This document shows positions 859 through 27,500 of a DNA stretch of 64,000 nt, one piece after another. A model generated the notes under the pieces. It was given only the letters and a program-made list of their open reading frames with translations. It made no database searches and had not been told where the DNA came from. The translations under genes were made by a program, and so were the position numbers. Position 1 is the first letter of the stretch. Each line of letters opens with the position of its first letter. This DNA comes from Capsaspora owczarzaki ATCC 30864. Taxonomy: Eukaryota > Opisthokonta > Filasterea. The stretch spans positions 1,033,534 to 1,097,533 of the forward strand of contig NW_011887292.1 of assembly GCF_000151315.2 (NCBI RefSeq). Reading direction: 5' to 3'.

Positions 859-1423
859 GACCTACGTGCAGGCGGAGCGCAAGGTTGGCGAAACATGCGC
901 AGAACTCAATGCAATGCAAAACAACAAAAGGGCGAGTTTTTTTTTTTCTTGCTTTCGTACCGTCTGGTCCTTATCCGTCAAGGACATGTCGTAAGTCGTG
1001 AGAGGTTGCACGCGCTCCTTCCTGTGATAACTGCATTTTCAAACGATCGCAATGAGCTTCAGGAGCCACAGCGAGGGACGGTTGGGTTGAGCTTGAAAGT
1101 TGATTTTCTCACCGATTGCACTCTGCGCCGCGAAGTAACAGCATGGGATTTGGAATAATCTTGCACATGACGGTAGCCTGATGCGGTGATTTGCCAAACC
1201 ACCCCAAGCCAAGAGAGTGCATGTTAGACGGCGGATCACAAGCATGTCCAAAGCTCCAAATTATTCTGACCTTGGGAGCCCCGTTCGCCGATCGCGTCGC
1301 ACCTGCGGGCCAATAGCGGGAAATTCTGCAACCGGCACAAAATACACACAGCGGGTGAGAGAGAGAGAGAGAGACCAGGAGCGATATTTGCATGCTGCGA
1401 AACCGATGGACCCGCTCAGAACC
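859..1423. other. Intergenic between ST7 start and next minus-strand gene
   Basis: About 565 bp with no convincing coding exon on either strand. It holds a short GA run near 1358-1374. Unrecognised 5' exons of ST7 could lie here, but none of the minus-strand frames shows the hydrophobic segments expected for the ST7 N-terminus. Confidence 0.4.
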
Positions 1424-1963
1424 TTACACCTCAAACCCAAGCAATGCCAGGAACAGCATGACGACCGTCATCGCGACGGAAATGTACAGCTGGGTTGTCA
1501 TGGCGGACGGGTGCCAGTTGTCGATGACAAAGGCCGGCGTGGCAGGCAGGATCCAGCGCACGACGGCGCTCAGCATGAAGCTCGTGCGTTCGCCAATGTG
1601 CTGCAGCACTTCGATCGCCATGGTCGCGTCCGTGTCCAAGTCGGCGTCGCGGTTGGGCGATGCTTGGCGCTCGGCGGATTTGCCACCACCACCGCCACCA
1701 GCAGCAGTAGTAGTCGTAGTCGTAGTAGTAGAGCCGGAAGCAGCAGCAGCAGCGGAGGTCGCCAGCGTTGAGGCGTCCGACGCGCCTGCCACAAGTTTGT
1801 CGGCCGCAGGGAGGCGCTGATGAGCGCTGTTCTGAGCCATCTGGAGCGTTGGTTGCAGGTGCTCGAGCGCGGTTGTGGATGGGACGAGTTGCACCGTGAT
1901 GACGAGCATGGCGGCTGCCAGCATGGCCAGCAGCACAGTGACGAGCAACGGAACGCGTCCCAT
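1424..1963 (-). CDS. Hypothetical membrane protein, 179 aa
   Basis: Single-exon reading frame starting at the ATG at 1963-1961 (MGRVPLLVTV) and ending in TAA at 1426-1424. Residues about 5-27 form a hydrophobic helix that could be a signal anchor. The C-terminal 30 residues are again strongly hydrophobic (LYISVAMTVVMLFLALLG), and a third, weaker hydrophobic stretch (FMLSAVVRWILPATPAFVI) precedes it. The middle is a Ser/Thr/Ala/Gly-rich linker with a poly-Thr and a poly-Gly run. I do not recognise a family. The frame is open in three registers here because of low complexity, so membrane topology is the main support. Its 5' end faces the Greatwall gene 360 bp away, so the two probably share a divergent promoter. 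Confidence 0.55.
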   Translation of the reverse strand: MGRVPLLVTVLLAMLAAAMLVITVQLVPSTTALEHLQPTLQMAQNSAHQRLPAADKLVAGASDASTLATSAAAAASGSTTTTTTTTAAGGGGGGKSAERQASPNRDADLDTDATMAIEVLQHIGERTSFMLSAVVRWILPATPAFVIDNWHPSAMTTQLYISVAMTVVMLFLALLGFEV

Positions 1964-2322
1964 TTCGCAGCGACGTAACCAGCACACACACACTCACACA
2001 CAGAAGCACGCACACAACGATAGACACAAACAACACAAGTAATACTATAAATACGGAAAAAAAGGTGAAAAGTGAGAGAAAAGAGAGACCACGCAAATCG
2101 CGCGCGGGGAACTGTGGAAGAGAGTGCGAAAACAGAGACTGAATGCGTCCTCAATATCAAATAGTGACACACACACAACCACGCGAGCTGCACCCAAAAG
2201 GTCGAAATCGCTCTGTGAACAGCAGTGATTTCTTTGCCCTTGTTCTTGATAATCGAGGTTTGGGAATCCGATCTTCCTGCGATGAAGAGCGCAGTTTTGT
2301 TTAATTTTACTTTGTATTTTCT
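1964..2322. promoter_or_regulatory. Divergent intergenic region, membrane protein / Greatwall
   Basis: 359 bp between two divergent start codons (1963 minus, 2323 plus). It is rich in CA repeats at 1981-2020 and has an AT-rich segment near 2280-2322. It is presumably a shared promoter, but no specific transcription factor site is identifiable by eye. Confidence 0.4.
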
Positions 2323-5300
2323 ATGGCGCTGAATCAGCAACAGCCGACGCCGCGTGGCCGCGCGCAATCGTGTGCCCCAGCAGCACGAATATTATTCATG
2401 GAGGATGCCGACGCTGACCTGGAGGGCTCCCGATTGAACGACAGCCTCGTGGTGGGGACATTGTCGCCGCCGTTGAAAGGCCAGCAACAAGCAGCGAACG
2501 GCGCAGAGACATCATCCGACGAGAACCGCGCTCCGTCGCCAAACCAGGTCAGAGCAAACAACAGCACGGGTTTTGTTTTGTTATGAGGAGACAGTGTGCG
2601 CGCACAACGACTGGAGTGCATGAAAGGAGGGAAAAACAACAAAAAGGCGGCGGAAACGAGCCAAAAATCCAACACAAAAACATTCTGAAACGGTTTCAAA
2701 AACATGCATTGTTTCCATCGCTCGTCGATTCAGTTGACAGCTGGATGGCAGTGTGCATGCTGTTTGGGAAATTGTCTGTTTTTCCGCGTTGGTCGAGGGT
2801 CGCGGTCGGGCTGTTGAAGCGGAAAGCGAAGCTGCGCACGACGATATTCGTTTTTGAATCTTTTTGAAACATCAAAAGCTGACGCATTGCGCCTCTTATT
2901 GAACTCTTCTGCAGACACACTCGTCATCACGCTCAAGAGCAAAAGCACACTCGTTTTCATACAATGCAAGTGGTGCACACGCCTCGTTGACTCGGGCGAC
3001 CGGATTGCTCGAACACGCGCCCCGATTGGAGCGATTGGACGTCAGCGCGCTTGGCGCCAAGTTGGAAAACCTCAATCTGCACTTGTCTGAATCGAGCGCC
3101 TTGCCGACACCGGACTCGGCGAGCATCCATTTCCTAGGATTTGCATTCCCACAGCCATGCACCGCAACGTTGCCGAACGAGTTTGCCGCGGCCGAACCAA
3201 CGAGCCGAGCGCGATTCGAGTCCTCGGAGGTGTCCGATTTGAGCAGCCAACTTGACAAGACGCTGCTCTTGGCGGACGATGATGGCAGCACCGCAATGGT
3301 AACGGGAACGCCACCTCGAGGCTATGGGGCTGAGAGTGGCCGTGGCGACGATGATTTTGACGGCGATGACAGCGACGACGCGGACACTGAGGCGAGCGAT
3401 TTGAACGCAACACTGTTGGCAACCTCCCCGACCGTCAAGCTCAACCTCCGCCCGGGGTTTTCGCGCAGCAATTCCAGCCTTTCCTCGGCTAGCTCGTCTC
3501 AGGTGAGTTCGCCAGTTCCGAATGCGACTCCGCCGCTGGGATTCGGCGTTGAGCAAGGCAGCGAGCAAGCGCGGCTGGCATGGCTGTCAAGTATTCTGCC
3601 CAGTCGTCTAGCAGCGTTTTCTCCCACCCTAGAGCAGACTACTACCACCAGCAGTAGTAGTGCAAATATCAAACAACCAGCGACCGCTGCCGGGTCTGGC
3701 AGCAACACGCACCCTGCTCCGGGTTCCGCGGCTTCTTCCGTCTCGGGACCATGTATTGATGACTTTGAAGTCATCAAGCCCATTAGCCGTGGTGCCTTTG
3801 GCAAGGTGTTTCTGTCAGCGCGCTGCAGGCCGGACGCGTCCGAGACCGGAGAGGATGCAGCAACGCCTCAGAATTTATTTGCCATCAAAGTCATCAAGAA
3901 GGAGGACATTGTTCGCAAAAACATGCTGCAGCAGGTGATTGCCGAGCGCAATGCCCTGGCGGTGTCCACCAACCAGTTTATCGTCAAGCTGTTCTACTCG
4001 TTCCAGTCACAACACCACGTGTTTCTCGTCATGGAGTTCCTGGTTGGCGGAGATTTGTCCTCGTTGCTCCAGGTCGTCGGCTGCATGGACGAGCGGCCAA
4101 TGGTTTTGTTCTACATGTCCGAAATCATGATTGCGCTCGAGTATCTGCACTCGAAAGGCATTGTGCATCGCGATTTGAAACCGGACAATGTTTTGATTGA
4201 TTCGTCCGGGCACATCAAGCTGAGCGACTTTGGGCTGTCTTCTTTGCCACAAAACAAGCGCATGCTGAGTGCGACCGATCTGTTCAACAGCACGCCCCAT
4301 CGACCAGTGTCAATGTTCAGCCGATCAGCCTCGTCCATGTCCCAACTCTCCTTTACAGCTTCCAGGACGCCGGGTCAAATTCGGTCCATTACGAGCGACT
4401 TTTGCTCTCTCAGTCAAAACACGCCAGCAGCCCTGCAGCGCTGTGGCTCATCGCTCGAAATGACCAGTTCCGCACGATTTTTGCATCGCATCAAACGGAG
4501 CGTTTCGGTGGATTCGACCTCCGGCTCGATCTACAAAATGCACCAGCAGCAAGCGATGCAGGCATCTCAAACATCAACGCCAGGACCCAGCTTGCATTCT
4601 TGGGGGGAAGAATCAGTTGAGGCTATGGCCGGCAGCGAGCCCCAGCAGCCTTCCACCAAACGCACGCTGACAAGTGTCAACGAGACGACAGCGCAATCCG
4701 CACCCTCGGCTGCAACCAACCCATTTGAATGGCCACCGTCGTACTTTGAAACCTCGCTTGGGAGCTGTGCCCCAACACCACAGAAGGCGACTCTTTCTCA
4801 GCAGCCGAACTTTGTCACCATGACACCGCAGGCTGGTCGTTCATATGGCCTTGAAGAAAACTCGTGGGCGCATATTCCTGCCACAACAGGACGCAAGCCC
4901 AAGGTGGGCTTGGCGAAAGCGCGCACCAACAGGCCCGTACTTGGCACACCAGACTATCTTGCTCCTGAAATCATTCGAGGGCAACAGCACAGTAAGTATT
5001 TGCGCTCCCATAGCCCATTGGAATTATTGCTTGTCATCATGTCTCTGACTCAGGGTGGAAAAATCATGGCCAACCGACACAACCAACACAAAATAGCACT
5101 AGCGGTAGACTTTTGGGCTCTCGGCGTGTGCTTGTACGAGTTGCTACTGGGCTGTCCACCATTCAATGCGGATAGCGAGGAGGAGATTTTCGATAACATT
5201 TTGAGCCGAGGTAATGCCAAGCACGAATGCAATGCGGTCATCCAAAAACACAGAAGAACAATAATCGTGTGGTTGCGTAGATGTCCCTCAATTTGAATGA

Positions 5301-5716
5301 TTCCGCTTTGTGTGTGTCTGGAGCAGCAATTCCGTGGCCCGAGGACGATAGTGCCTTGTCACCCGAGGCCTTTTCGTTGATCAATATGCTACTCAGCGAT
5401 GATCCTTTTGCTCGGTTCAATGTCCGCCTGATCAAGAAGCATGCGTTCTTTGCAGACGTTGACTGGAGCGCCGTTCATACACAAGAGCCTCCGTTTGTAC
5501 CGACTCCTGCTGGAAGTACCGACACGAGTTATTTTGATGGTAAGATCTGGGCAAAACAATGTGTCTACAGAGTTTTATGAAACTCGAAAACGATTCATGC
5601 ACTCATTGACAAAACAATCACCCTTTGACGTTCATGTTATGATGCTGCCATGCGTCGTCCCGACAGCTCGCAATTCTGCCCAAAATCTCCGCTTCTCTGC
5701 CTTCGCCAGTGAATGA
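2323..5716 (+). CDS. MASTL: Greatwall/MASTL protein kinase with split activation segment
   Basis: Five exons: 2323-2547, 2915-4991, 5097-5210, 5327-5539, 5667-5716, giving 892 aa. The kinase domain starts near residue 359 (G-loop SRGAFGKVF, catalytic loop HRDLKPDN, DFG near 513). About 230 residues are inserted between DFG and GTPDYLAPE (near 752), the hallmark of Greatwall. Inside the insert DLFNSTPH and RTPGQ match the vertebrate MASTL insert start. The end (DTSYFDARNSAQNL...) matches the conserved MASTL C-terminal tail DTSYFEARNTAQHL. Greatwall phosphorylates ENSA/ARPP19, which then inhibits PP2A-B55, controlling mitotic entry; fungal Rim15 is the counterpart. The insert is much shorter than in vertebrates (over 500 residues). 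About 358 acidic and Ser-rich residues precede the kinase, with no recognised domain. Neighbours are unrelated. Confidence 0.93.
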
Positions 5717-5938
5717 GCCAGCAGCATTCAGTTTGTTGTTTTGGACAATTCCGTTTTGTTTTCGTTTGGTTATCGGTTATTTTTGTTTTGATAAAAGTTT
5801 GCATTTTCGCTTTCAACATGGAATTGTTGTACAACATCTGGAAGATTTGATTTCCACAATATACACAATTATACAATGGTGTTACACCTGTTTTGGCATT
5901 TTGGAGCACAGGAATTGACAAAAACCAGAGTCGACTTC

Positions 5939-7780
5939 CTAACTGCGGAGCAGCATGGTGTGCAGCGCCTTCCAGGTGAAATAGCTGCCCGCAGTAAGCA
6001 ACAACGGAGCAAGTAGCCCAGAAAGAGCAGCGATGGGGATGGAGGGAACGGCACGGCCGGCGAGACGCTGGAAGAGCGAAAAGACCACATTCCAATACAC
6101 GGACGAGGTCAGGAACATTGGACGATTGAGAGGCGCCCTGTTGACCGTCTGGATGAGCAGCTCCGAGGTAATATCGAGCGTCAGGCCCCAGAGACGGAAG
6201 ATGGTGTGCGAGTCTTGCGTCGTCCCCATGGCGAGACGCTGGCTGGGTTCGCCTGGGGCCGTAGAGCTCCCTGCCGAGAACGAGGAGGTCATCACCAGGG
6301 GGCTTGCAAGTGTGTCATGCGACGACGCGGGCAAAAAGACGCACGGCATGATGAGGGGGTTGATGCCAATGATGGCAAGCACGGTGCACACCCAAGACGA
6401 CGGGAAGATGGTAAAGTCAAACCAATCCACCACACCTGACGAGGCAGACGCGGCATAGACAGTCATGTTGGAGCTGGGGGACGTTGGCGCGGTGGCGAGC
6501 TGTGCCGGGTTGATGCCGGACGGGTGCGACGCAGCATTCGAACTAGCACTGTTGCTCAAGCTCAGACCAGGAAGAAGGCTCTGGTGCTGGTGCAGGTGTA
6601 GATGCGGCGCTAGGAATGCCGTGACGGGGACCCAGCGGTAGGCGGCAATTTCCGTTTCTGCGAGATGGAGCGGCGGCGTTTCGTGGCACACCTGGACAAA
6701 GACAAACACGTGCACTGTATACTTGCGCGAGCGACCGGCTGTGTGTGGTTTGAGCTGGCCAATCAGCATAAAGGGCGAGTCGACGCGAGTTGGATCGACA
6801 TCGAGCCCAGTTTCCTCTCTTGTTTCGCGAATGGCCGCCTGCAACGGCGTCTCGCCAGCTTCGATGTGCCCGCCTGGGAAGCACACATCCGCCGAGAAGG
6901 GGTCTCCAGCACGCTCGACGCGTTTCAGGTACAGAATTTCGGCACGCGAGAGCGCCAGGCTGGCTGCAGTCGGAGGTTGGCCGATGGGCGTGGCGGGCGT
7001 TTCCGAGTTTCCAAGAGACGACGAAGCCGAGGCAGAAGGTGCCGATGCAGTCAACGTTGAGGCGGGAATGGGCGCGGGAACCACGAGGCCGTTTCGCTGC
7101 AAGAGCGAGAGGGACGTGCGCGACAGAGCGACCGGGGCGCGCGGCGGGACGGAGCGAACGCCCGGCGGTCCCAGCACGAAATTTGGCAGCACAGCCGACG
7201 ACGAAGCGGACAATACAGAGAACGACGTGGTGGACGTGGCGGAGGAGGTGGTTGCAGTAGTAGCAGCAGCAGCAGGTGTAGCAGGTTGTAGAATTGGTGA
7301 CGCGGGGCGCAAGACGGGCGAAACAGACTCGACGGACGAGACTGGCGACGGCGACTCTGACGAACCCGAGACGAGGACACCGGGCGTGCTGGTCGCGTTG
7401 GAGACTGTCGAGAAGGATGAGGACGAGGACGAGGACGAAGACGAAGACGAAGACGAGGACGAGGGTTTGGTGGACGAGGCAGAGACAGCCGACCAGGACG
7501 ATGACAGCGGCGAAGTAGTCGAAGCAGCGGCGGCAGCAGCAGCAGTGTTGGGCGTGGAGTGGTGCACGGCGGACGCGGGCAGGCGCAGAATGATGGAAAT
7601 GGAAGCCAAGCGACGTCCACTCGAGTTCGCAGACGACGCAGAGGACGAGGACGTGGACGAGGACGTGGAGGAGGAAGAAAGCGAAGATGGCTTGGCGCGG
7701 TCATCAAAGTTCCACGACGACGCGGTGCTCAGCAGCGCCTTCAGAAACGGATCGCGCAGCAGCAGCGACGTCGGCAGCAT
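5939..7780 (-). CDS. Large Nudix hydrolase with hydrophobic C-terminus, 613 aa
   Basis: Intronless frame from ATG 7780 to 5939. The Nudix box is complete near residues 301-323: GGHIEAGETPLQ then AAIRETREETGLDV, i.e. G-x5-E-x7-REUxEExGU with the metal-binding glutamates present. The preceding ILYLKRVERAGDPFSADVCF and the later RLWGLTLDI motif resemble a fungal/protist family annotated as CoA- or nucleotide-pyrophosphatase-like Nudix proteins (CFPGG, then LWGLTLG). The last 200 residues carry hydrophobic segments (VCTVLAIIGINPLIMPCVF and PIAALSGLLAPLLL), so it may be membrane associated. The first 280 residues are Ser/Thr/Ala low complexity. The substrate cannot be told from sequence. Convergent with Greatwall (222 bp apart) and divergent from the dehydrogenase. 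Confidence 0.85.
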   Translation of the reverse strand: MLPTSLLLRDPFLKALLSTASSWNFDDRAKPSSLSSSSTSSSTSSSSASSANSSGRRLASISIILRLPASAVHHSTPNTAAAAAAASTTSPLSSSWSAVSASSTKPSSSSSSSSSSSSSSSSFSTVSNATSTPGVLVSGSSESPSPVSSVESVSPVLRPASPILQPATPAAAATTATTSSATSTTSFSVLSASSSAVLPNFVLGPPGVRSVPPRAPVALSRTSLSLLQRNGLVVPAPIPASTLTASAPSASASSSLGNSETPATPIGQPPTAASLALSRAEILYLKRVERAGDPFSADVCFPGGHIEAGETPLQAAIRETREETGLDVDPTRVDSPFMLIGQLKPHTAGRSRKYTVHVFVFVQVCHETPPLHLAETEIAAYRWVPVTAFLAPHLHLHQHQSLLPGLSLSNSASSNAASHPSGINPAQLATAPTSPSSNMTVYAASASSGVVDWFDFTIFPSSWVCTVLAIIGINPLIMPCVFLPASSHDTLASPLVMTSSFSAGSSTAPGEPSQRLAMGTTQDSHTIFRLWGLTLDITSELLIQTVNRAPLNRPMFLTSSVYWNVVFSLFQRLAGRAVPSIPIAALSGLLAPLLLTAGSYFTWKALHTMLLRS

Positions 7781-13974: not shown

Positions 13975-15416
13975 CGAAAAAAAAAAAAGAAGAAAAAGAA
14001 GAAAAAGAAAAAAAAGAAAGAAACAAAGGAGTGAGGCAGAATCTCAGAGATGGTTATGGATTTGTGAAAATCAAACGAAGGGAACGGGAGAAGCACGAGG
14101 CTCAGGCGATCGTGGATGTTGGGTGTTGGTTTGCTGTGAAACTGCAGAGAGTGGCGGGGTTTGGGTTTGAGTTGTTCACCTCCACCCCCTCCACTTCCAT
14201 TGACAATCATGCTGTAGTTTTTGCATCTGAGACTTCCATCTGAGACTTCCATCTGAGACTTCCATCTGAGACTTCCACTCCCCCTTTCTTCTCCCGCTGA
14301 TTCAGTTTTCAATTTTTTTCGGTTGGTACCACACAAAAATCGTTTCGTTGTCTTGTGGATTTTTGGGTGTGGATTCGAAGACGCGGGGTCTGGCTGAAAA
14401 GTCGGGGTGTCGCTCCTTCTGCATCGACTCCGTTGACGCAACCAGCTGCACAGACCCTCCACCACACCCAAACACCGATCGGCAGCCGGGGTTGTCGCAC
14501 AGGAAGCGGCGGCGGGCGGTCGGAGAGGGAGACTTGTTTTTTGGCGAGAGAAGGGGCCTTTTTTTTTTTTTTTTTTTTTTCTTTCTGTCTTCCGTTTCGT
14601 TCGGGTGCTATCAGAAGGGGGATGACTTTTCCCGGTTCACCGTTCTCATTCATCGTTTTTTGGTCAAGTGGGGGCGTTGTTCAGCCACTCGCCTCTCCCA
14701 CAACCTTCTTTTTGGAGGGCTGCCGTTTATCTCGGTGCGCAATCCCAAATCCGCTGCCATGCTTCTCTCCCCCCCCCACCTTTTCGCACACACCAGCCTG
14801 CCCATTCGACCACACACACCCTTACTACTCACTCCCACCATGCTCCTTCGCTGGTCGTCCGCGCCCCCCCCCCGCGCTCTTGCTGGGCTCGGTTGGAGCT
14901 GCCTTTTTGACCGTCCTGCGCTTATTTTTTATTTTTTATTTTTATTTTTATTTTTTATTTTTATGATTTTTTAATTTTTTTTTTTTTGGTTTGTAGCGTA
15001 AAACGTTACGTTCCAGCCGCATCGAGTGCAGGACAACAGACGGGGGACTCTGTCGGAGCGAAAGAGTGATGCCTGTCAGACAGGGCGTATGGGTGTGTGG
15101 GCAGGCGGGAGGTGGGTGCAGCGGTGTGAGTGACTCTCCCATTGCCCTTTCTTTCCCTTCCACTGGCTGCTGCTTCTGCCGTGGCTGCCGCGAGACCCTC
15201 TGAGCCAGTCCCCGATCGACGCTGCACACTCGTGACACCTCTGCATCTGCTCTACCGTGACTCGATTCTGCGCGTCTCTTGTGCGGGCAGCGCCATCGAC
15301 CACAACAAATGCATCTGCTTTCACCTCCCTCCCTCCCCCACTCGCTCGGCTTGCTTTCTCACTCACTCGTTGTGACTCTCGTCTCTGCCCTGCTTGCAGA
15401 TCTACACTGTCCGAGA
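13975..15416. other. 1.4-kb divergent intergenic region
   Basis: Lies between the divergent glucosidase II and Gln-rich protein starts. It is low-complexity DNA: an A/G run at 13977-14035, a four-copy 13-bp repeat, a 21-nt T run near 14560, C runs near 14770 and 14865, and TTTTTA repeats near 14925-14990. No coding region with family similarity was seen. A strong splice acceptor (ccctgcttgcag, ending at 15399) lies just before the ATG at 15417, so a non-coding 5' exon of the Gln-rich gene probably lies here. Confidence 0.5.
14225..14276. repeat. Four copies of a 13-bp tandem repeat
   Basis: The unit atctgagacttcc is repeated exactly four times (14225-14237, 14238-14250, 14251-14263, 14264-14276) in the intergenic region. 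It is a candidate minisatellite; no role is evident. Confidence 0.9.
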
Positions 15417-17841
15417 ATGACCGATCAACCGGGCGCAGACCAGCTGCAACGCCCGATNNNNNNNNNNNNNNNNNNNNNNNNNNNNNNNNNNNNNNNNNNN
15501 NNNNNNNNNNNNNNNNNNNNNNNNNNNNNNNNNNNNNNNNNNNNNNNNNNNNNNNNNCCGGCATCACCAGCAGCTTCAGCTTCAGCCTCTGCCTCTGGAG
15601 ATGAATTGCATGGCCAGGCCCAGCAACCGACAACACAACAGTCGACGCGAGCCGTCACACCCGATCCACAAATCCCCGTTGATCCCACCCACTTGCCCGG
15701 CTTGCAGCAACACACTCTGCAAATGCAGCAGCAGCAGCAGCAACAGCACCAACAGCAGCAACAGCACCAATCACAACAACACTCGACACAACCATCACCT
15801 CAGCCGATTCTACCACAACCGATCGAAAGCGCAAAGCAAAAGCCGCTGCGAAAAGCCTCCGACTCTGCTCGACCAATACTGCCAGCCCCTCCAACACAAG
15901 CGAGCGCACCCATTTCTGCAGCACCTGGGGCTCCGGCAACAGATAAGCAACCTTACAGCCAAGCACCCCAGTCGCAATACCTCTCCGAGGCAGAGCTGCA
16001 CGCGCTGCACCAGCCTGGACCGCTACATCCGCGTCCGCCAGCCCTGTCGCAGCAAAATCAAATGAGCGTGTTTTCTTATGCTCCGGCGTACGGCCAGCAT
16101 CAACAGCAAGCCCCAGTTTCGGGTCAACAAGTGGTGCAGCCGACCGCGTTCGGTCCACCACCGATCGGTTTCAACCGTGCTTCGTCACGGCAGCCGTCCC
16201 CGACACCCAGCCGGCCGCAGTCGCCCCCGATGCAGCAACAGCAACTGCAGCAGCAGCTCGCAAATGTTTCTCAACCCCCTCTGCATCAAGGCATGCTGCC
16301 ACCGCAACCGCAGCCACTTCAGGGCCCCCAGGTCATGCAGCAGCCTCCCCCGCCTCATGGTTTCCAAGCTGTGGACGCGTATGCGGCTGCACCACCAGCT
16401 CCCCAGTTTGCAGGCCAGGAGCATCAGGTTCTGTATCCCGTCGCTTTCAATCCCCAGCAGCTTCAACAGCAAACTGCTCCGCCACCACACTTTGTCGACC
16501 CGACACAGCAACCGCAACAGCAAGGTGTTTATTATGTCTCGGCTCCTCCTGGCGCTCCTGACGGCTACATGTCTGCTGGATACGCCCAACCCGGTCAGTA
16601 CGTCGACCCCTCCTTGATACAGCAGCAGCAGGAAGGGTATGTGTATCACGGGATGATGACTCTCGAGCAGCAGCAGCAGCAGCAGCAAGTCCAGCTTCAA
16701 CAGCAGCACGCGCTTGCCGCGCAATCGCAACCACCAATGCCCGAGCAGCTCCAGTCACAACCGTTGCAAGCACAAGCACTACCGCCACAATACCCACCAC
16801 CACTACAGCAACAGCAACAACAACAACAACAACAACAACAACTGCAGCAATCACCCTCCCAGATGCAACAACCACAGCCCCAACAAGAGCAGCAATTTGT
16901 GCCATACGACGCGCACGACCAACATCAATACCAGCAACAGCAACAGGCGTTTCACACTCAACAGCAGCAACTGTCTGCACCCGACACGTCTTCGTCTGCC
17001 AGCGATGCGAGCAGCGACTATGCAGCCTCTGGGCCGGTTGCCAGCGGGCCCACGCACCCCAACTCTGGATCTATCTTCCGTGGATTCAAGCGCCATCATT
17101 TCGACACAGAGGAGCAAGAGCTTTCGCTCGAAACAATCAAGCACTACATTGATCCTCGCGACGTTCCTTCCGAGGAGCAGTCCTGGTACTCTCAGCAGCG
17201 CTCCCTCCCGTTGCCGAGTCTCCTCGTGCAGCCGCATACAATGGAGTCCCTCTCGCTGCGGGACTGGCCGGCGCTGTTGCGGTGCCTTCGTGAGCTTTCC
17301 AACACGGAGCGTCTCGCCAGCCAGGCATTCGCCTCTCTCGCAGGTGGCGCTGGGCTTCAACTTCCCGCCAAGCTTGCCAAGAACCCCGAGGTGGCGGCAG
17401 AGTGGAATGTCATGCAAGAATATCTGACGGTAGGTGTTTGTTCGAGTGTTGGGTTGGTGCTGATTTGCCGGTTTTTTTTTTAACTTGTCTCTCACGGAAT
17501 GCAACCAAAAATTTGGTTGACAGCGATGCACCGAGCGCGAGAACAGCGTCACACAGGTTTTAAGCGCAGTTGAGCGGCGACTGTTGGACGTCGTTACGCT
17601 GCGTGATCAAATTCATGATGCCATTTCAGACATTAAGGAGGGCCGCGCACCCCTGCTCCCCGAACGCAGCGAGTCCGTGTCTCCAATGCAGCCAGCCACG
17701 TACCTCGAGGAGGGACTATCGTTCGCTCGTGAGGGCGATGACGAGGATGGCGAGGACACTCAGGATGTTTTGTATCCCAGTTACCCTAGCGAGGATTCCC
17801 TGCAGCATGCCGCAGATTCGCTGGACTCTGAGAGCGCATAG
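15417..17841 (+). CDS. Gln/Pro-rich protein of unknown function, interrupted by assembly gap
   Basis: Two coding exons, 15417-17429 and 17524-17841 (about 776 codons counting the gap). The ATG at 15417 follows a good acceptor, so a 5' UTR intron is likely. Exon 1 contains the 100-N gap, whose true length is unknown, so frame continuity across it is not proven. Residues after the gap are dominated by poly-Gln blocks, with Pro, Ser and Ala. The last 240 residues are ordinary sequence: FRGFKRHHFDTEEQELSLET, a Leu-rich stretch (LRDWPALLRCLRELSNTERL) and an acidic end (REGDDEDGEDTQDV). Exon 2 encodes a probable amphipathic helix (VTQVLSAVERRLLDVVTLRD). I do not recognise a domain. Gln-rich composition suggests a transcriptional or RNA-associated factor, but that is only a guess. 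Confidence 0.65.
15458..15557. other. Assembly gap (100 N)
   Basis: Exactly 100 Ns inside the first coding exon of the Gln-rich gene. A round number normally marks a gap of unknown size between contigs. The flanks are Gln/Ser-coding low-complexity DNA, which probably caused the break. Confidence 0.99.
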
Positions 17842-19273: not shown

Positions 19274-22200
19274 TTAGGCCCAACCGGTGAACGTGCCAGC
19301 CGGGGCAGGTTGAACCGAGATCGGAGTCGGGGCGACTGGCGGCTTGATTTGACCGGCCTCGAGTTTGGCAAAGTCAATCTCCTTGAAGAAGGGGTGCTTG
19401 ATGATATCGGCCTCATCCACCGAGGCACCGAGGCGTTTGGTGGCGTCCTTCTCCAGCAACGCCTTGATTGCGGCCTTTGCGGTCTTGCCCAGCGAGTGGG
19501 GCAGGTACGGCTCCTCGTTGACAATCTGCATCAGGAGCAGCAGCAGCAGCAGCAGCAGGATGATTGGCAGTCAGTTATAAAATCCGTTTCAATCATTGCA
19601 GCTTGTCCCTGCTCAATCCACTTGCCTGATTGCGGAGGACACCAATATCGTCAGCAAAGAACGGAGGACGACCGACAAGCATCATGTACATGACAACACC
19701 TGAGGTCGGGGGGAGGACAACCGAGAGACAAGAACGCTTTAGCAACCGCGCACTTTCAAATATCGGGCAATTTCAAGTAGCGCGCAACCACAAACTGTGT
19801 GTGCAAATTGTCGTAACATACCCAAGCCCCACCAGTCCACAGTCTTGTCGAATGGCCTGTTTGCGACCATTTCAGGAGCCATGAAGCCGGGCGTACCAGC
19901 AAACGCAGCGCCGCGACCGCCCGCCGGAACACAAAGACCAAAGTCAATGACCTGTAATTGTTCCAGATGACGATGAGTGAGCAGTGGCGAAATTCGTGAA
20001 ACACGAGCAACACTTTTGACCATGCTCTACTGTCACTCCAGCAACAACCACAACAACAACAACCACAACAACAACAAAACCCAAACCCAAAACCCAAAAC
20101 CAAAGCAGCTCACCTTGACATTGCCAGCAGTGTCAAACATCAGGTTGTGGAGGGCAAGATCGCGGTAAATGATGCCTTGCTTGTGCAGGTAGCGAAGGGC
20201 GGCAGCAATCTGGCAGGCGTAGAAGCGACCGAGCTTCTCGGGGAACTTGTCCTCGGGACGGGTGGGGACCTTGAAAGAGCCACCGCCGAGGTACTCGAGA
20301 ATAAAGAAGGCATGCGAGGTCGTTTCGGTTGACGCAACAATGCGGCAAATGTTGGGATGGCGCAGCCGCTCAAAGCTGCGCTCGATGGCAATCTCGGGCG
20401 CGTTGGTGTCGTTCTTGGGCACAGTCTTGACGGCCACGTACTCCTTGTTGGACTTGCGCTGCGCAAGAGCCACCTTGCCGAACGAGCCCTCTCCAATCCA
20501 CTTGACAAACGAAAGGTCTGCAAAGAACGTATCGGCAGCACTGCGGCTCTCGGCAGCAAGCTTGGCGTCGTTTGCTGCACGCTGCTGCATTTCGGCCGCT
20601 TCGGCAGCTTCCTCGGCAGAGTCCTCGTGCACGTGAATGCCAAACTTGATGACCACCACGGAAATGTTGTCTTCCGAGCCGTAGAGGTAGGCCAGGTCGC
20701 GCAGCTTCTTGGCGGCAGAGACGGGGTCGGGCACAGAGCGCGCAATTTCGACGGCCAGCTCGTACGAGACAACGTCCCACAGACCATCGCAGGCAAGAAT
20801 GACAAACTCGTCCGCGGGCTGAATGTTGATGGCCTTCAGGAAGGGCTCGGGCGAAACGTACGGGTTGAGGTACGAGTCGCCGAACGCGCGGGTGGCAGCG
20901 AGAATGCCGTTGACACGGTCGTCGTCCGAGAAGAAGCCGCCCTGCGAGAGAATGCGGTTGCGTTCGACTTGGTTTTCGATCGAGTGCTTGGTCGTCAGCA
21001 GCTCGTACGTGTTGCCACCACGGCAGATGAGCGCCTCCGTGTCACCAATGTTGGCAGCAAAGAGTCGAACAACGCCGCTGTCCAGGCGCTGGAGGTACAC
21101 CACAGCACCCGTCGAGCCGCAGCGGTAGCCAGCTTCGCCAATGTCGCGGTTGGCGCACAGGAACGCCGATCGGAGCGCAGCCAGAGGGTCGGCATTGCCA
21201 AGGCGACCCAGTTCGTTTTCGATGGCGACCGGGAAGGACTTGGCGAGAATGTCGGCAACGTCGGGCCCAGAGTGACCGTCAAACACACCAAAGATGGCCT
21301 CAAACTCGTTGCCGCGGACACGGCGCATCTTGACCAAGGAATCTTCCATGCGCAGGCGTCGACCCATAATGTCTGCCGAGCCGTACGACCAGACGTCACC
21401 CAGCAGGTAGCCGCCAGCCTCGGTCTTCTTGGCGTGCGCGTCGGAAAGCCCGCGAACATTGGCCACTGCCTCGGCAGTGATGCGCTGGAGCGCGGTCGTG
21501 GCAAACTGGCCTTCCACCACCAGCTTGGTGTTGCCGCTGACATCGAGAAGCTCGAGCACGGGGAGCGCACGGACGGAGGCAGGGATGGCAGCCAAGCGGT
21601 TGCAGCCGAGATCAAGGTGAACGAGCGATTCGGGGAGCGGGGGCAAGTCGCGCAGCTTGTTCGAGTTGGCGAGCACGTACTTGAGCTTCTTGAGACGGTT
21701 GATGCTGCGGGGCAGCTCGGTGAGCTTGTTGCCTGCAACGTTCAGCGTGCCCAGCTCGGTCAGACGCGAAATGTTGCCCGACACGGCAGTCAGGCCGTTG
21801 TAGCTCACGTCGAGAATGCGAAGCTTGAGCATGCCCGTGATCTTGTCGACCTGAGCATCGTTGAGGCGATTTTGGCCGACATACAGCTCTTCGACGGCAT
21901 TGAGCTCGTCCGTGTCGGACAGCGCGGGCAATTCCGTCAGCATGTTGTTCGAGACGTTGAGCACGCGGGTCATGTAGCAGAACTTGAGCAGCTTGTCCGG
22001 GAGCTTTTGCAGACGGTTGTGCTGGACCTCAAAGATCTGGATGAGGCACTTGGCAAACTTTTCCGGGAGCACCTCGATCTGGTTGTACGCAGCGTACAGC
22101 CACTTGAGCGTGGGGATGGCAAAGATCTTGGCCGGGAGCGAGCGCAGCTGGTTGTTCTTGACAATGAGGGACTCGAGGTTGGGCAAGTCTCCGATGGCCT

Positions 22201-23645
22201 CGGGCAACGACGTCAGTCCGTTGTCGGTCAGGTTGATCTTTGTGAGCATCTGGGGAAGCACGGTAAAGTTGAGCGACCCCAGGAAGGCCTCGGGCGCGCG
22301 GATGGTCTTGAGGGCCGGCAGCGCAACATCCAGCGCGGGCGCGCGCGCAAAGTTGTTCGGGCCAATGTCGAGCGTCTCGAGCTTGGGCAAGTTGGCGAGA
22401 ACGGGCGGGAATTGCTGCAGGGGGTTTTGACGAATGTCAATGCGCGTCAGGCTGACCAGCCGGGACATGCTTGCGGGCAGACTCGAGAGCTTGTTGAAGC
22501 GCACGTCGAGCAAGGTCAGCTTGGTCAAGTTGCCGATGCCGTCGGGGAGAACCTCCAGCGCGTTGCTCGTCAGGATGAGCTGGTGCAGCTCAACGAGTTG
22601 GCAAATGACAGGGGGCAGCGTTGCAAAGTCGTTGAAGGCGAGCACAAGCGTGGTCAGCTTGTTGAGCGTGCTGAGCTCGTTGGGGAGCGTTGAAAGCTGG
22701 TTGTTGTGCACGGCGAGAATGCGCAGGTTGGACAGCTTGCTGATGCCTGGCGGGATTGCGCGGATTTGGTTGCGCGAGAGGTCAATTTCAGAGAGCGAGG
22801 GCACGGAAAACAGGCCGGTCGGGAACTCTTGCAGGTTGTTGTCAATCAGCTGGATGCGGGTCATGGTCTTGAAGGCCGAGTAGTCCTGCAGCGGGCTGAT
22901 CAAATTCTTGGCAAGCTCCAGGGCCGTCGTGGTGGCAGCCTTGCTCGTCAGAACGTCCGCGGGCAGGGCCTCGAGCGAGCGCTGCGCCAAGTTGACTGCG
23001 TTGGGGTCCTTTGAGGCGATCGGCGCAATGCGCGACAGCCAGTTCTTGCGGTCGACGGCGGATTCGCAGGCAAAGAGGACTGGGTTTTTGGCGCCGAGCT
23101 CGCGGACGCCAAACACGAAAGGCTTTTTCTTCTCCTCGACCTCGCTGACGAGCGCGCCCGTGAGCGACAGCGTCAGGAGGGGCTTGGTGGCCGAGGGCGA
23201 CTCGTACTCGATGAGCTTGTTGCCCTTGATGATGCAGAAGCGGTTGTCCCACTTTTTGCCCTCCATGAGCAAGCCCTTGATGGAGATGGTCTCCTCGGGC
23301 GTTGCGAGGCGCGACAGGCCCGCAACAAAGCGAAGGACGTACGAGTGGTCCTTTGCGCTCTCCTCCGGGATTTCGGCGGCCTGGTAGCCCAGCAGGAAGA
23401 GATTGTCGCAGAGCAAGCGCAGCGGCGACTCGTCCTGGCGCATCCGGCGCTCGACGCCATTCGGAGTGCGCACAAACAGCTGTCCGCCGAGCTTGCTGGC
23501 CACTTCCTGGACGGTCGTGTTGATGGTCACTGGCACGACATCGAACTTGGAGAGGTCTGGCTGGAAAGATTTGGAAGAGTGGAAGGGGAAGATGAGCAAC
23601 AACGGGGCAGTTTCAAACGAAGCGATACAGATCGGGTGAAGGCGA

Positions 23646-23704
<59 letters not shown>

Positions 23705-24300
23705 TGTGTGTGTGTGTGTGTGTGTGGTACCGAAGCGACACAGAGGGACAAGGAAGATCAATGGGGGCAAAACCAATAAAAAAAAAAAAAAAACCACAAC
23801 AACAACAACAACGGATCACAAAGCAAACAGGGACACGCTGCAGCTGGAACTCCCACCACCACCCGCTTCCCCCCCCCCAACAACAACTGAGTGCGTTCGA
23901 TCAAGAAATAGGCGAGAGCTAGAGCGTGGGGGGGGGGTTTGACCGCAATGACCACTCAGAGAGAGCTAAATAAAAAACCAATGGGAAAACGGACGAGTTC
24001 ACGCGCTCCACCAACTCAAACTCGCTGCTACTTCAGCCCCCTCATAGCCCACTACCACAGCTCCGAATCAACTCTACATCTGCTATCTCTCTCTTTGTCT
24101 TTCTTTGTCTCTTTGTCTCTCTTTGTCTTTGTCTCTCTGGTTGCAACATCAGACAACGAGCACAGACATTCAATGCTGCCTTCCTCTTTATGAGCTGCTG
24201 CTGCTGTATTGTGGTGTTGGTTCATTGTGTGATCGTCCATTGTCGCTCTTCTTCTTGCCTTGTAGACTCTGATGCTACCGTTGGTAGGGTAGGACGCCAT
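19274..24300 (-). CDS. RA-PH-LRR-PP2C-protein kinase fusion (PHLPP-like phosphatase fused to AGC/PKG-like kinase), 1,314 aa
   Basis: Exons: 24300-24259, 23560-20114, 19951-19822, 19699-19626, 19525-19274; phases are consistent, and introns 1 and 4 have GC donors. Domains: RA/ubiquitin-like 9-96 (IRVYK joined to PDLSKFDVVPV, ending YVLRFVAG); PH 106-196; about 20 leucine-rich repeats 245-735; PP2C 739-988 with RMED, FDGHSG (Asp775), CDGLWD (Asp939) and SEDN (Asp978), so the metal site is complete. After an Ala/Glu-rich linker comes a kinase (1026-1314) with GEGSFGKV, VAVK (Lys1059), YRDLALHN (Asp1148), DFG (Asp1166) and MAPE. The first four domains are the PHLPP1 order. The loop Lys of RDLK is Ala, and the T-loop (GRGAAFAGTP) lacks the usual AGC phospho-Thr. 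A short tail ends FTGWA. Divergent from COG1 by 206 bp. Function (self-regulating Akt/PKC-like signalling) is inference. Confidence 0.92.
23646..23727. repeat. GATA/GA/GT microsatellite in intron 1 of the fusion gene
   Basis: About 80 bp of (gata), (ga) and then (gt) repeats, followed further on by a 17-nt A run and CAA repeats. All lie in the 698-nt first intron (24258-23561) of the kinase-phosphatase gene. Confidence 0.9.
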
Positions 24301-24506: not shown

Positions 24507-27500
24507 ATGCTGGGCCGATCTGCTGCCCTTTCGAGCGAGCCAACGACTGCTCCACATACAAGCAGCAGCAGCACCGCCGCCGCCATGATTGCGCGGGTTG
24601 CAGGCGCGACCAGTGAGACCGATCGCAGTGTCGCTGCGGCCGAACGCGAGGCCGAGGAGCTCCTGATCAAGCACAGCGTCAAGGACGTCCTCTCAACAGA
24701 GCAGAAGGTCAGTTTTGCCCCACCACCACCACCACGCCGCTACGCCACGCCACCCATCATTGTCGTCAAGCTGTACTCATTGCTCGTTCCTGCCATTCGT
24801 TCGTTCTTGTTCTTGTTGTGCAGCTGCGCGGCGACATTGAGCACAAGAAGGTCGAGCTGCGAACAATGGTCGGCGAGCGTTACCGCGATCTGATTGACGC
24901 AGCAGACAGCATTCTCGCCATGAAGCAAGGCAGCAATCTCGTCACACACTCACTCCAGCGATTGCAGACGCTGTGTCTTCACGCATCGGCGCGGCCACAG
25001 CCACAGCCACAGCCACAGCCGGTCGGTGGCGCCAATGCAATCATCTCAAACGCAGCGGCCTCGTCCACGTCGACATCCTCATCCAATCCGCTTGCAACTT
25101 CTGTCAATGCTCATGCTAATGCTGTTGCTGTTAGTGCTGGATTGTCGCGCCACAGTCGCGAGTCCGGAGTGCATGGCAAGGGCGCCGCCGATGTCGCCAC
25201 GGCCAGCCCGAAGGCGCTCTTTCTGATGGCGAGCCAGATGAGGCTGCTTGTCGACGCACCCGAGCACATCTGGAGCGCACTTGAGGCGCACGAGCATTTG
25301 CGGGCTGCCAACCTCTTCCTGACAGCCACACAAGCCCACGCCGACTTTACGGCAGACGCCCAAAAGCGAACGCTGGCCGAGAATTTTCCCATTTTGCGCC
25401 AACAGTGGACCGCCATCAGCCATTTCCGCGAGCAAATCCTCACGGGTGCACGAAGGCAGCTGTGTATCACCTCATCAAGCACCGCTGCTCCTGCCCCTGC
25501 GACTGCTCGCGAGAGCGGTCTTGAGGATGCTCTGCAAACGCTCATTGTGCTCGACCACAAAACCCCTCTGCAAGTCTTGGGCGAGCTGCTCGAGTGGCGC
25601 AGGCGCAGTCTTCTTCGCTGCTTTGCTCTCGATGCAGACACTGTGCACGATGTTCCAGAGCGGTTTACGCACATGGTTTTGATTGTGAAGGTAAATATTT
25701 TGGTGTTATGAGTTCTCGCGGATTTGAAGTGTGGAAATTGTTTTCTGACCGTTTCCCCCCCCCCCCACGACCACCACCACCACCACACACACAAACACAC
25801 TCACAACAATACACCTCAGCGCACCATTGCCAGCGTGCACGCATGTTTCATCTCGCCCGATGCCCCGTTTCCTGTGCCGTTGGACCAATTGCAACGCGCA
25901 ACGGCGTCGTGGTTTGGACAGTGCTGCGAGCACTTTGCAGCCGTTCAGTCTGGTGCATCCTTCACAGCCCACGGACTGGCGGACGGGAGCCGCGCGGCTG
26001 GCGACGTCAAAGTCCCCCATGGCACTGTGGCGACCGAGATGCCCGACACTCCGGCAGGCGACCATGTGCTCCTGTTTGTCCATTCGTTGCGCACGTTGGG
26101 GTCTGTGGTAGACCGCGTGTTGGCTGCCCTGTCCGACTTTCCCGCGAGTGTGGTTGCTGCCGCCATTGGCCGTGCCTGCTCCGTTTGGGATGAGTTGGTT
26201 GTTCCCTCGCTTGTGGCTCGCGCGACGCAGTTGCTGCGCGGTTCCCTCGACCAAGCCACAGCTCAGCTGCGTGCTCAGTGCGACAGCGCCTTTGCCTCGG
26301 TCACCGCGTTCCATCACCAGCAACAAGCGCGACAGTCGGCAAAAATCACCCGCTCGACTTCCATGTTTGATAACTTGATTGCCATCGAGTCGTCACCCAG
26401 CGTGTCACAGATCGTCGCTAGTCTCGACAAGGCGCTTGCGGCCGCGGTGACGGATGCCAGTGTCCTCTGCACGGCCATCCACACCCAGCTCGGCAAGTTG
26501 CCCGACATTGCCCAGTCAACCGCGGCAGCCGCTCCAGCCTCGGTTCCGACGGCCATTGCCGCCATTTTCCAAGATTTGTTGTTTTGCGCTTTGGCGCGAT
26601 TTAGCGAGGAATTGACGACCCGCGTCAAGGCCGTACAGGCGATTGGCGGCCAGAAGCACCCCGAAGGCGATGCCGCCAGTCCCGCCGCCATCTCGCCCGG
26701 CCAGCTGTCTGCGGAAACTGCCGACCAGCTGCTCTTCCTGGGCAAGTTGACGCAAACCGTGCTGTTGGGATCGACACAAATCAGCAGCTTCTTTTCAGCT
26801 CAGTTTGCCGCTCAGAGGCTCGGAGTCGTCAGTACTCCGGGATTGGCCCCCGGAATGCTCAGTGCGCATTCCAACACGACCGTCCAACCCAGAGGCGCCG
26901 TTCCTAGTGCCTTGTCGCGTCTTCCCACCGCGCACAACACCAACTCGCCGCAGCCACTCTTAGACTTTTCCTCCCCGTATGTCCCACCAAACACTGAAGC
27001 ACGCCTGGTGGTGCTGTATTTTGCCTACCGCAGCACCTATCTTCATGCCTACCTTGCATGGGTTGATTGGGTGGCACACACGATTGCGGCTGGGTTTGAG
27101 GCGAATTTGCTGGCCTTCCCCTGGGTGGATGCCATGACCGACGTCATCGGCGCGACGGCGGGGGCGACTTCCCAGTCTGTCTTGCCGTCCATTGCGCTGT
27201 CCGCTCGTCTGGGGTGGGACAATGTTGCCGTGCACGAAGGCGACTCGACTGCCGCCTCCTCCGCGCCCTCGGCAAACGACAGCTTGAACACATCCCTGTC
27301 CGCCCATGCCAGTATTGCTGTCCCGACATGTGCGTCGAGCGTCATGTACAACATGCTATTCGACCTGTGTCGTGAAATTGAGCGCGCTGGTGGCCATCGC
27401 ATCGACACCGAGGTGCTGCTCTGGCTGACCCGTGCCGTCTCGCACCAGGTTGTCGAGCGCTTGTCGCATCTTCTTGCGAGCAATCGAATCACGCTTAAGC

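Follow-up and report, generated by a model that had tools for sequence, protein, structure and literature searches.

Gene structure and domain layout

The stretch analysed here, referred to as the window, comprises 64,000 nucleotides of Capsaspora owczarzaki ATCC 30864 (contig NW_011887292.1, positions 1,033,534 to 1,097,533), and its minus strand carries a single gene that joins a PHLPP-type phosphatase to an AGC protein kinase. The gene runs from an ATG at 24300 to a stop codon ending at 19274, and its five exons join in frame to a coding sequence (CDS) of 3945 nt, which encodes 1314 aa. Pfam models match in the order RA_3, PH, leucine-rich repeats (LRRs), PP2C, and Pkinase. We have very little doubt about the identity of this gene as the PHLPP gene of C. 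owczarzaki and about the anatomy described below. One polypeptide with this layout had been proposed in an initial annotation made from the sequence alone, the coordinates and joined frames of which proved to be exact; its assignment to the PHLPP type was borne out by the match to the RA model of PHLPP. One fusion sequence from one assembly was examined, and the genome searched comprised 27.46 Mb in 29 contigs. In that genome, the GAPDH qPCR primers published for C. owczarzaki (PMC9170242) found exact matches 532 bp across, and a coWts arm (PMC10959527) agreed at 100 of 100 bases; a coYki arm (PMC9170242) was detected neither as a 90-mer nor, with 3 mismatches allowed, as a 40-mer, and that stretch may be absent from the assembly or withheld in it. 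The exons are as follows.

24259..24300, minus strand: exon 1, 42 nt; the ATG and first 14 residues, including the start of the RA domain; GC donor
20114..23560, minus strand: exon 2, 3447 nt, open throughout; the remaining RA domain, PH, LRRs, PP2C, the linker, and the kinase N-lobe up to the catalytic loop (YRDLALHNLMFDTAGNVK)
19822..19951, minus strand: exon 3, 130 nt; from VIDFG through APE and DWWGLG
19626..19699, minus strand: exon 4, 74 nt; GC donor at its end
19274..19525, minus strand: exon 5, 252 nt; the end of the kinase, a short tail finishing in FTGWA, and the stop codon

Since PP2C and the kinase up to its catalytic loop lie on one exon, the fusion is independent of splicing. The earlier proposal of a single 3.4-kb exon was correct in this respect for PP2C and the kinase N-lobe, whereas exon 1 supplies the initial 14 residues and exons 3-5 encode the part of the kinase that starts just ahead of DFG. 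The introns measure 698 nt (GC-AG; 24258-23561), 162 nt (GT-AG), 122 nt (GT-AG), and 100 nt (GC-AG; 19625-19526), and none of the four contains N. GC-AG borders thus occur in two of the four introns. Joining exon 1 to exon 2 raised the RA_3 score from 42.9 bits (profile positions 4-93) to 55 bits (1-93 of 94), and the protein across the exon 4-5 join aligned to PKN2 without an insertion; both GC donors are supported because exon 1 completes the RA model of PHLPP and the second join aligns uninterrupted. Third-position GC was 0.63-0.91 along the CDS, with values of 0.81, 0.70, and 0.79 in three 80-codon windows covering residues 881-1120, the junction between PP2C and the kinase. The domains were placed as follows.

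23324..24273, minus strand: RA domain, residues 10-93, split by the intron at 24258-23561; Pfam RA_3
23003..23299, minus strand: PH domain, approximately residues 102-200, with outer bounds set by us; Pfam PH 9.6e-12 over residues 116-192
21488..22960, minus strand: leucine-rich repeats, approximately residues 215-705, with outer bounds set by us; Pfam LRR_8 2.6e-42
20639..21385, minus strand: PP2C phosphatase domain, residues 740-988; Pfam 1.3e-54; R751, E753, D754, D775, D854, D939, D943, and D978
20522..20638, minus strand: Ala/Glu-rich linker between PP2C and the kinase, residues 989-1027, delimited from the sequence
19349..20521, minus strand: AGC kinase domain, residues 1028-1290, over exons 2-5
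19277..19348, minus strand: C-terminal 24 residues, without an NFD motif or a Pkinase_C match

On the open frame of exon 2, Pfam returned RA_3 at 6.2e-11, PH at 3.1e-10, LRR_8 and PP2C at the values listed, and Pkinase at 2.2e-29 for its N-terminal half. On the spliced protein, RA_3 (PF23010, "PHLPP protein RA domain") reached 1.1e-14, its 55 bits standing against a cut-off of 27, and PH reached 45.8 bits against a cut-off of 25.1. RA_3 is not exclusive to PHLPP, and a cyclase gene of the same genome on contig C7, described below, scores higher (84.5 bits). Regarding the LRRs, a loose pattern matched 22 times in the protein; once four matches lying beyond the repeat region and one (at 398) that overlapped another had been removed, 17 in-register motifs remained over residues 247-660, such that the "about 20" of the initial annotation stands if degenerate repeats are counted. 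The linker looks helical by our judgement. Pattern scans with the exon-2 protein of viral and prokaryotic contig collections gave 4 and 40 matches, respectively, with no relative among them, which says little.

Placement and catalytic residues of the kinase half

The spliced kinase matched Pfam Pkinase with 188 bits over profile positions 4-263 of 263, and among 1598 PDB sequences that matched it, the 60 top-ranking ones were all AGC kinases, namely, PKN2 (8e-59), PKC, Akt, SGK1, PKA, and S6K. The closest kinase of the same genome (44%) is a PKC with a C2 and two C1 domains in its upstream part. In a tree of 13 rows (the fusion, 8 kinases of its own genome, and 4 from the PDB, which were also used for the column counts below), the fused kinase fell on the PKC/PKN side with a branch support of 95/98 and had an end branch of 2.73 against a median of 0.63. 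The AGC part of the original assignment was therefore upheld by the PDB matches, while its PKG-like part was not: a clade with the PKA rows, which served as a stand-in because the tree held no PKG row, was rejected (p-AU 1.2e-05), and none of the 16 matches to the cyclic nucleotide monophosphate (cNMP)-binding model PF00027 in the genome lies at this gene. Whether the kinase groups with PKG or Akt was a check named in the same annotation; the free tree placed the fused kinase with PKC/PKN, and a clade with the Akt rows was not rejected at 0.05 (p-AU 0.083). On these results, the fused kinase appears to descend from the PKC/PKN group, which it resembles more than PKG.

The beta3 Lys (K1059), the catalytic Asp (D1148), N1153, the Asp of DFG (D1166), and APE are present in the fused kinase. 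Considering the roles assigned to kinase residues and the biology of PDK1 and the hydrophobic motif, the positions that have changed include ones of catalysis and control. Ala (A1150) stands in place of the catalytic-loop Lys, A1179 replaces the activation-loop Thr, which is the PDK1 site, A1181 replaces a Cys, and the stretch ahead of helix C is shortened. The protein ends in FTGWA, in which the aromatic residue is not followed by a phospho-acceptor, and thus has no phosphorylatable hydrophobic motif. No AGC tail was found in the fused kinase as either an NFD motif or a Pkinase_C match, and none of the 15 matches to PF00433 (Pkinase_C) in the genome lies near the gene. A hidden tail further downstream was also sought in three minus-strand frames between positions 19600 and 17000, which yielded one string resembling a hydrophobic motif and one resembling FDxxF, neither of them like an AGC tail; this candidate was rejected, none of the 15 PF00433 matches being in that stretch.

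The fused kinase departs from the 12 references at 9 of the 44 columns that are constant among them, two of the nine being the missing NFD motif. When each reference was left out in turn, 0-5 departures were counted over 44-49 columns; the PKN2 and PKC alpha rows each contribute two departures at NFD columns because the alignment ends there, and the crystal construct behind the PKC alpha row has Glu in place of the activation-loop residue. Among 15 AGC-type kinases of the same genome, which are our pick from 92 exon-level matches and not the full AGC set of the genome, the catalytic-loop Lys is present in all 15 (including Akt-like L055) and Ser/Thr occupies the activation-loop site in 13, whereas the fusion has Ala at both positions. 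An F/Y-x-x-F-S/T-Y/F motif is found in 12 of the 15, a PKA-type F-x-x-F end in two, and neither in one, as against FTGWA in the fusion. These 15 derive from 19 inspected kinase loci (L023-L026 and L048-L062), 13 of which entered the motif table, to which L052 and L059 were added; L051, L056, L058, and L060, which we read as fragments or as kinases of other types, were not counted. Judging from these residues, the fused kinase may have weak activity, may work independently of phosphorylation, or may be dead.

Phosphatase half, cyclase paralogs, and neighbouring frames

The PP2C domain keeps R-x-M-E-D, DGH, GD, DG, D, and EDN in an alignment with the chain of plant PP2C 56 in 3kdj and with the paralogs of the same genome, in agreement with the earlier statement that its metal-binding residues are complete. 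Since these residues have metal-binding and phosphate-binding roles, the domain is predicted to be an active phosphatase.

In addition to the PHLPP-kinase gene, the genome contains two Cyr1-like genes with LRR, PP2C, and cyclase domains, on C3 and C7. The C3 gene (L021, C3:802000-810500, positions 1289-5953 on the plus strand) encodes LRR, PP2C, and a class III cyclase domain, and positions 49-94 of RA_3 match in a separate open frame directly upstream (C3:802985-803122). The C7 gene (L022, C7:834000-842500, minus strand, 7341-1984) is distributed over several open frames and comprises RA_3, LRR, PP2C, and an incomplete cyclase match, its RA_3 match being full. The PP2C domain of the C3 copy has CG for DG and lacks the R-x-M-E-D motif, while that of the C7 copy is strongly degraded, with DGR, GH, SK, and RAN in place of DGH, GD, DG, and EDN. 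The Capsaspora PHLPP-kinase shares its RA-LRR-PP2C chassis with the Cyr1 adenylate cyclases of fungi and holozoans; in the Cyr1-like genes, a cyclase replaces the kinase and the PP2C residues are degraded. According to Pfam, the PHLPP-kinase gene has PH and no cyclase domain, and no PH match was obtained in the four open-frame pieces scanned from the Cyr1-like genes. The intact PP2C of the fusion and the degraded PP2C of the cyclase paralogs agree with the published pattern, in which, outside animals, the active site is retained in PHLPP and lost in Cyr1 (Husremovic et al., 2025; PMC12002173).

Elsewhere in the window, a divergent neighbour at 24617-25711 on the plus strand is an open frame that matches the Vps51/EXO84/COG1 N-terminal model (PF08700, 8.9e-11) and probably encodes COG1 of the Golgi COG complex. 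At 15261-17483 on the plus strand lies a strongly Gln-rich open frame in which 100 consecutive N, an assembly gap or a withheld stretch, occupy positions 15458-15557.

Published fusions and the proposed function

The initial annotation knew of no described RA-PH-LRR-PP2C-kinase, and this claim no longer stands. PHLPP proteins that end in an AGC kinase have been reported from some unicellular holozoans and are traced to a PHLPP ancestor in which an RA-LRR-PP2C chassis acquired a PH and an AGC kinase domain (Husremovic et al., 2025; PMC12002173); the legend of Figure 6B names C. owczarzaki among the drawn architectures, and the Capsaspora protein drawn there is very probably the product of the gene described here. 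The published proteins have the same RA-PH-LRR-PP2C-AGC kinase order, with active-site residues kept and Cyr1-type paralogs alongside, and a comparison at the level of the text revealed no difference from the Capsaspora gene. The PHLPP/kinase scheme, with filastereans named, is repeated in a second article (PMC13358185). The architecture is therefore already known and cannot be claimed as a novel type of fusion; the interpretation of individual kinase residues given here is our own. In its main text, the former study calls the functional implications of the AGC kinase domain in PHLPP unclear and uses neither "pseudokinase" nor "kinase activity" (PMC12002173), and no text that we found in the open-access literature calls the PHLPP-fused kinase a pseudokinase.

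The animal proteins PHLPP1 and PHLPP2 have RA, PH, LRR, and PP2C in the same order and, unlike the Capsaspora fusion, are without a kinase domain (PMC12002173). The dephosphorylation of Akt by animal PHLPP, on which the original proposal drew, is itself contested: purified human PHLPP2 has been reported there to be a pseudophosphatase, the activity having disappeared in the ancestor of metazoans (PMC12002173). A phosphatase and an AGC-type kinase domain also share one chain in oomycete and plant proteins, which combine a phosphatase, a cNMP-binding domain, and an inactive PKG-like kinase, and in which the kinase-like domain, it is suggested, may help bind phosphatase substrates (PMC3019232). 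Since those proteins have cNMP-binding and PKG-like kinase domains, whereas that of Capsaspora has RA-PH-LRR and a PKC/PKN-like kinase, the two fusions appear to be separate.

Following the suggestion made for the oomycete and plant proteins, we favour a reading, given about even chances, in which the phosphatase would be active and the kinase-like domain would have a docking or regulatory role. RA and PH would place the protein at membranes, the LRR solenoid would hold PP2C, and PP2C would act as the working phosphatase. The kinase-like domain would mainly dock phospho-substrates, possibly AGC kinases or their partners, for PP2C, or would gate PP2C, and would not be an independently switched kinase that PP2C turns off in cis. 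The worn kinase half may thus be a helper of the phosphatase rather than its opponent.

Several points weigh against this reading. K1059, D1148, N1153, DFG, and APE are kept, so that catalysis by the kinase would be possible. At the alphaC Glu position, MAFFT and phmmer align Ile1073, whereas the profile alignment opens a gap of one residue and places Glu1074 there. Two other kinases of the genome, L052 (C13:885500-891500; MAVGT) and L059 (C4:11500-17500; VAVGT), are also without the usual activation-loop Thr, and therefore that loss alone does not mean that a kinase is inactive. The long branch may distort the position of the fused kinase in the tree, and the losses were read in one sequence, that of Capsaspora, and may not be shared by other holozoans. 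An activation-loop Thr/Ser for PDK1 is not universal among AGC kinases, ROCK and MRCK being phosphorylation-independent, and we take L052 and L059 to be ROCK/MRCK-like. The retained residues, these two kinases, and the score of 188 bits would suit a protein in which both enzymes are active, with a phosphorylation-independent AGC kinase and with the two halves sharing a membrane site but differing in their substrates. We take this to be the main rival, but consider it rather unlikely in view of the change of the catalytic-loop Lys to Ala, the nine altered columns among 44 that are otherwise constant, and the long branch; L052 and L059 keep both the catalytic-loop Lys and the hydrophobic motif.

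The self-limiting switch put forward in the initial annotation, in which PP2C strips the activating phosphates from its own kinase and which a Ras-like GTPase and phosphoinositide were proposed to gate, draws on the presence of both domains in one chain, but was weakened by the residues found, namely, A1179, the missing AGC tail, and FTGWA without a phospho-acceptor. Since the kinase has no Thr in its activation loop, lacks an AGC tail, and offers no hydrophobic motif that could be phosphorylated, there is no classical AGC site for PP2C in cis, and although other autophosphorylation sites are possible, we regard the switch as improbable. That two genes or a misassembly underlie the locus and no fusion protein is made is barely credible. 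The exon 1-2 and 4-5 joins depend on GC-AG splices in a single assembly; however, PP2C, the linker, and the kinase N-lobe lie in one unbroken exon without N, and fusions of PHLPP to an AGC kinase at the C-terminus have been published from unicellular holozoans (PMC12002173). We rejected this explanation on the large exon, the introns without N, and the coding composition throughout.

Extending the docking or regulatory reading from Capsaspora to premetazoan PHLPP in general, the phosphatase would do the enzymatic work, and the AGC domain fused to it would be a pseudokinase, or close to one, serving to dock substrates for the phosphatase or to control it, a proposal that we offer tentatively and with clearly less than even expectation. 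If it is true, then, taken together with the phosphatase-cNMP-inactive PKG proteins of oomycetes and plants, the combination of a phosphatase with a dead AGC kinase would have been invented more than once, and animals would have lost the docking half as well as the catalytic residues of the other half. Gene disruption in Capsaspora has been published (PMC9170242; PMC10959527). With an intact-looking PP2C, a worn kinase half, and a host in which genes may be disrupted, Capsaspora PHLPP would provide one-gene access to the premetazoan role of PHLPP and to the enzymatic or only structural nature of its link with AGC kinases.

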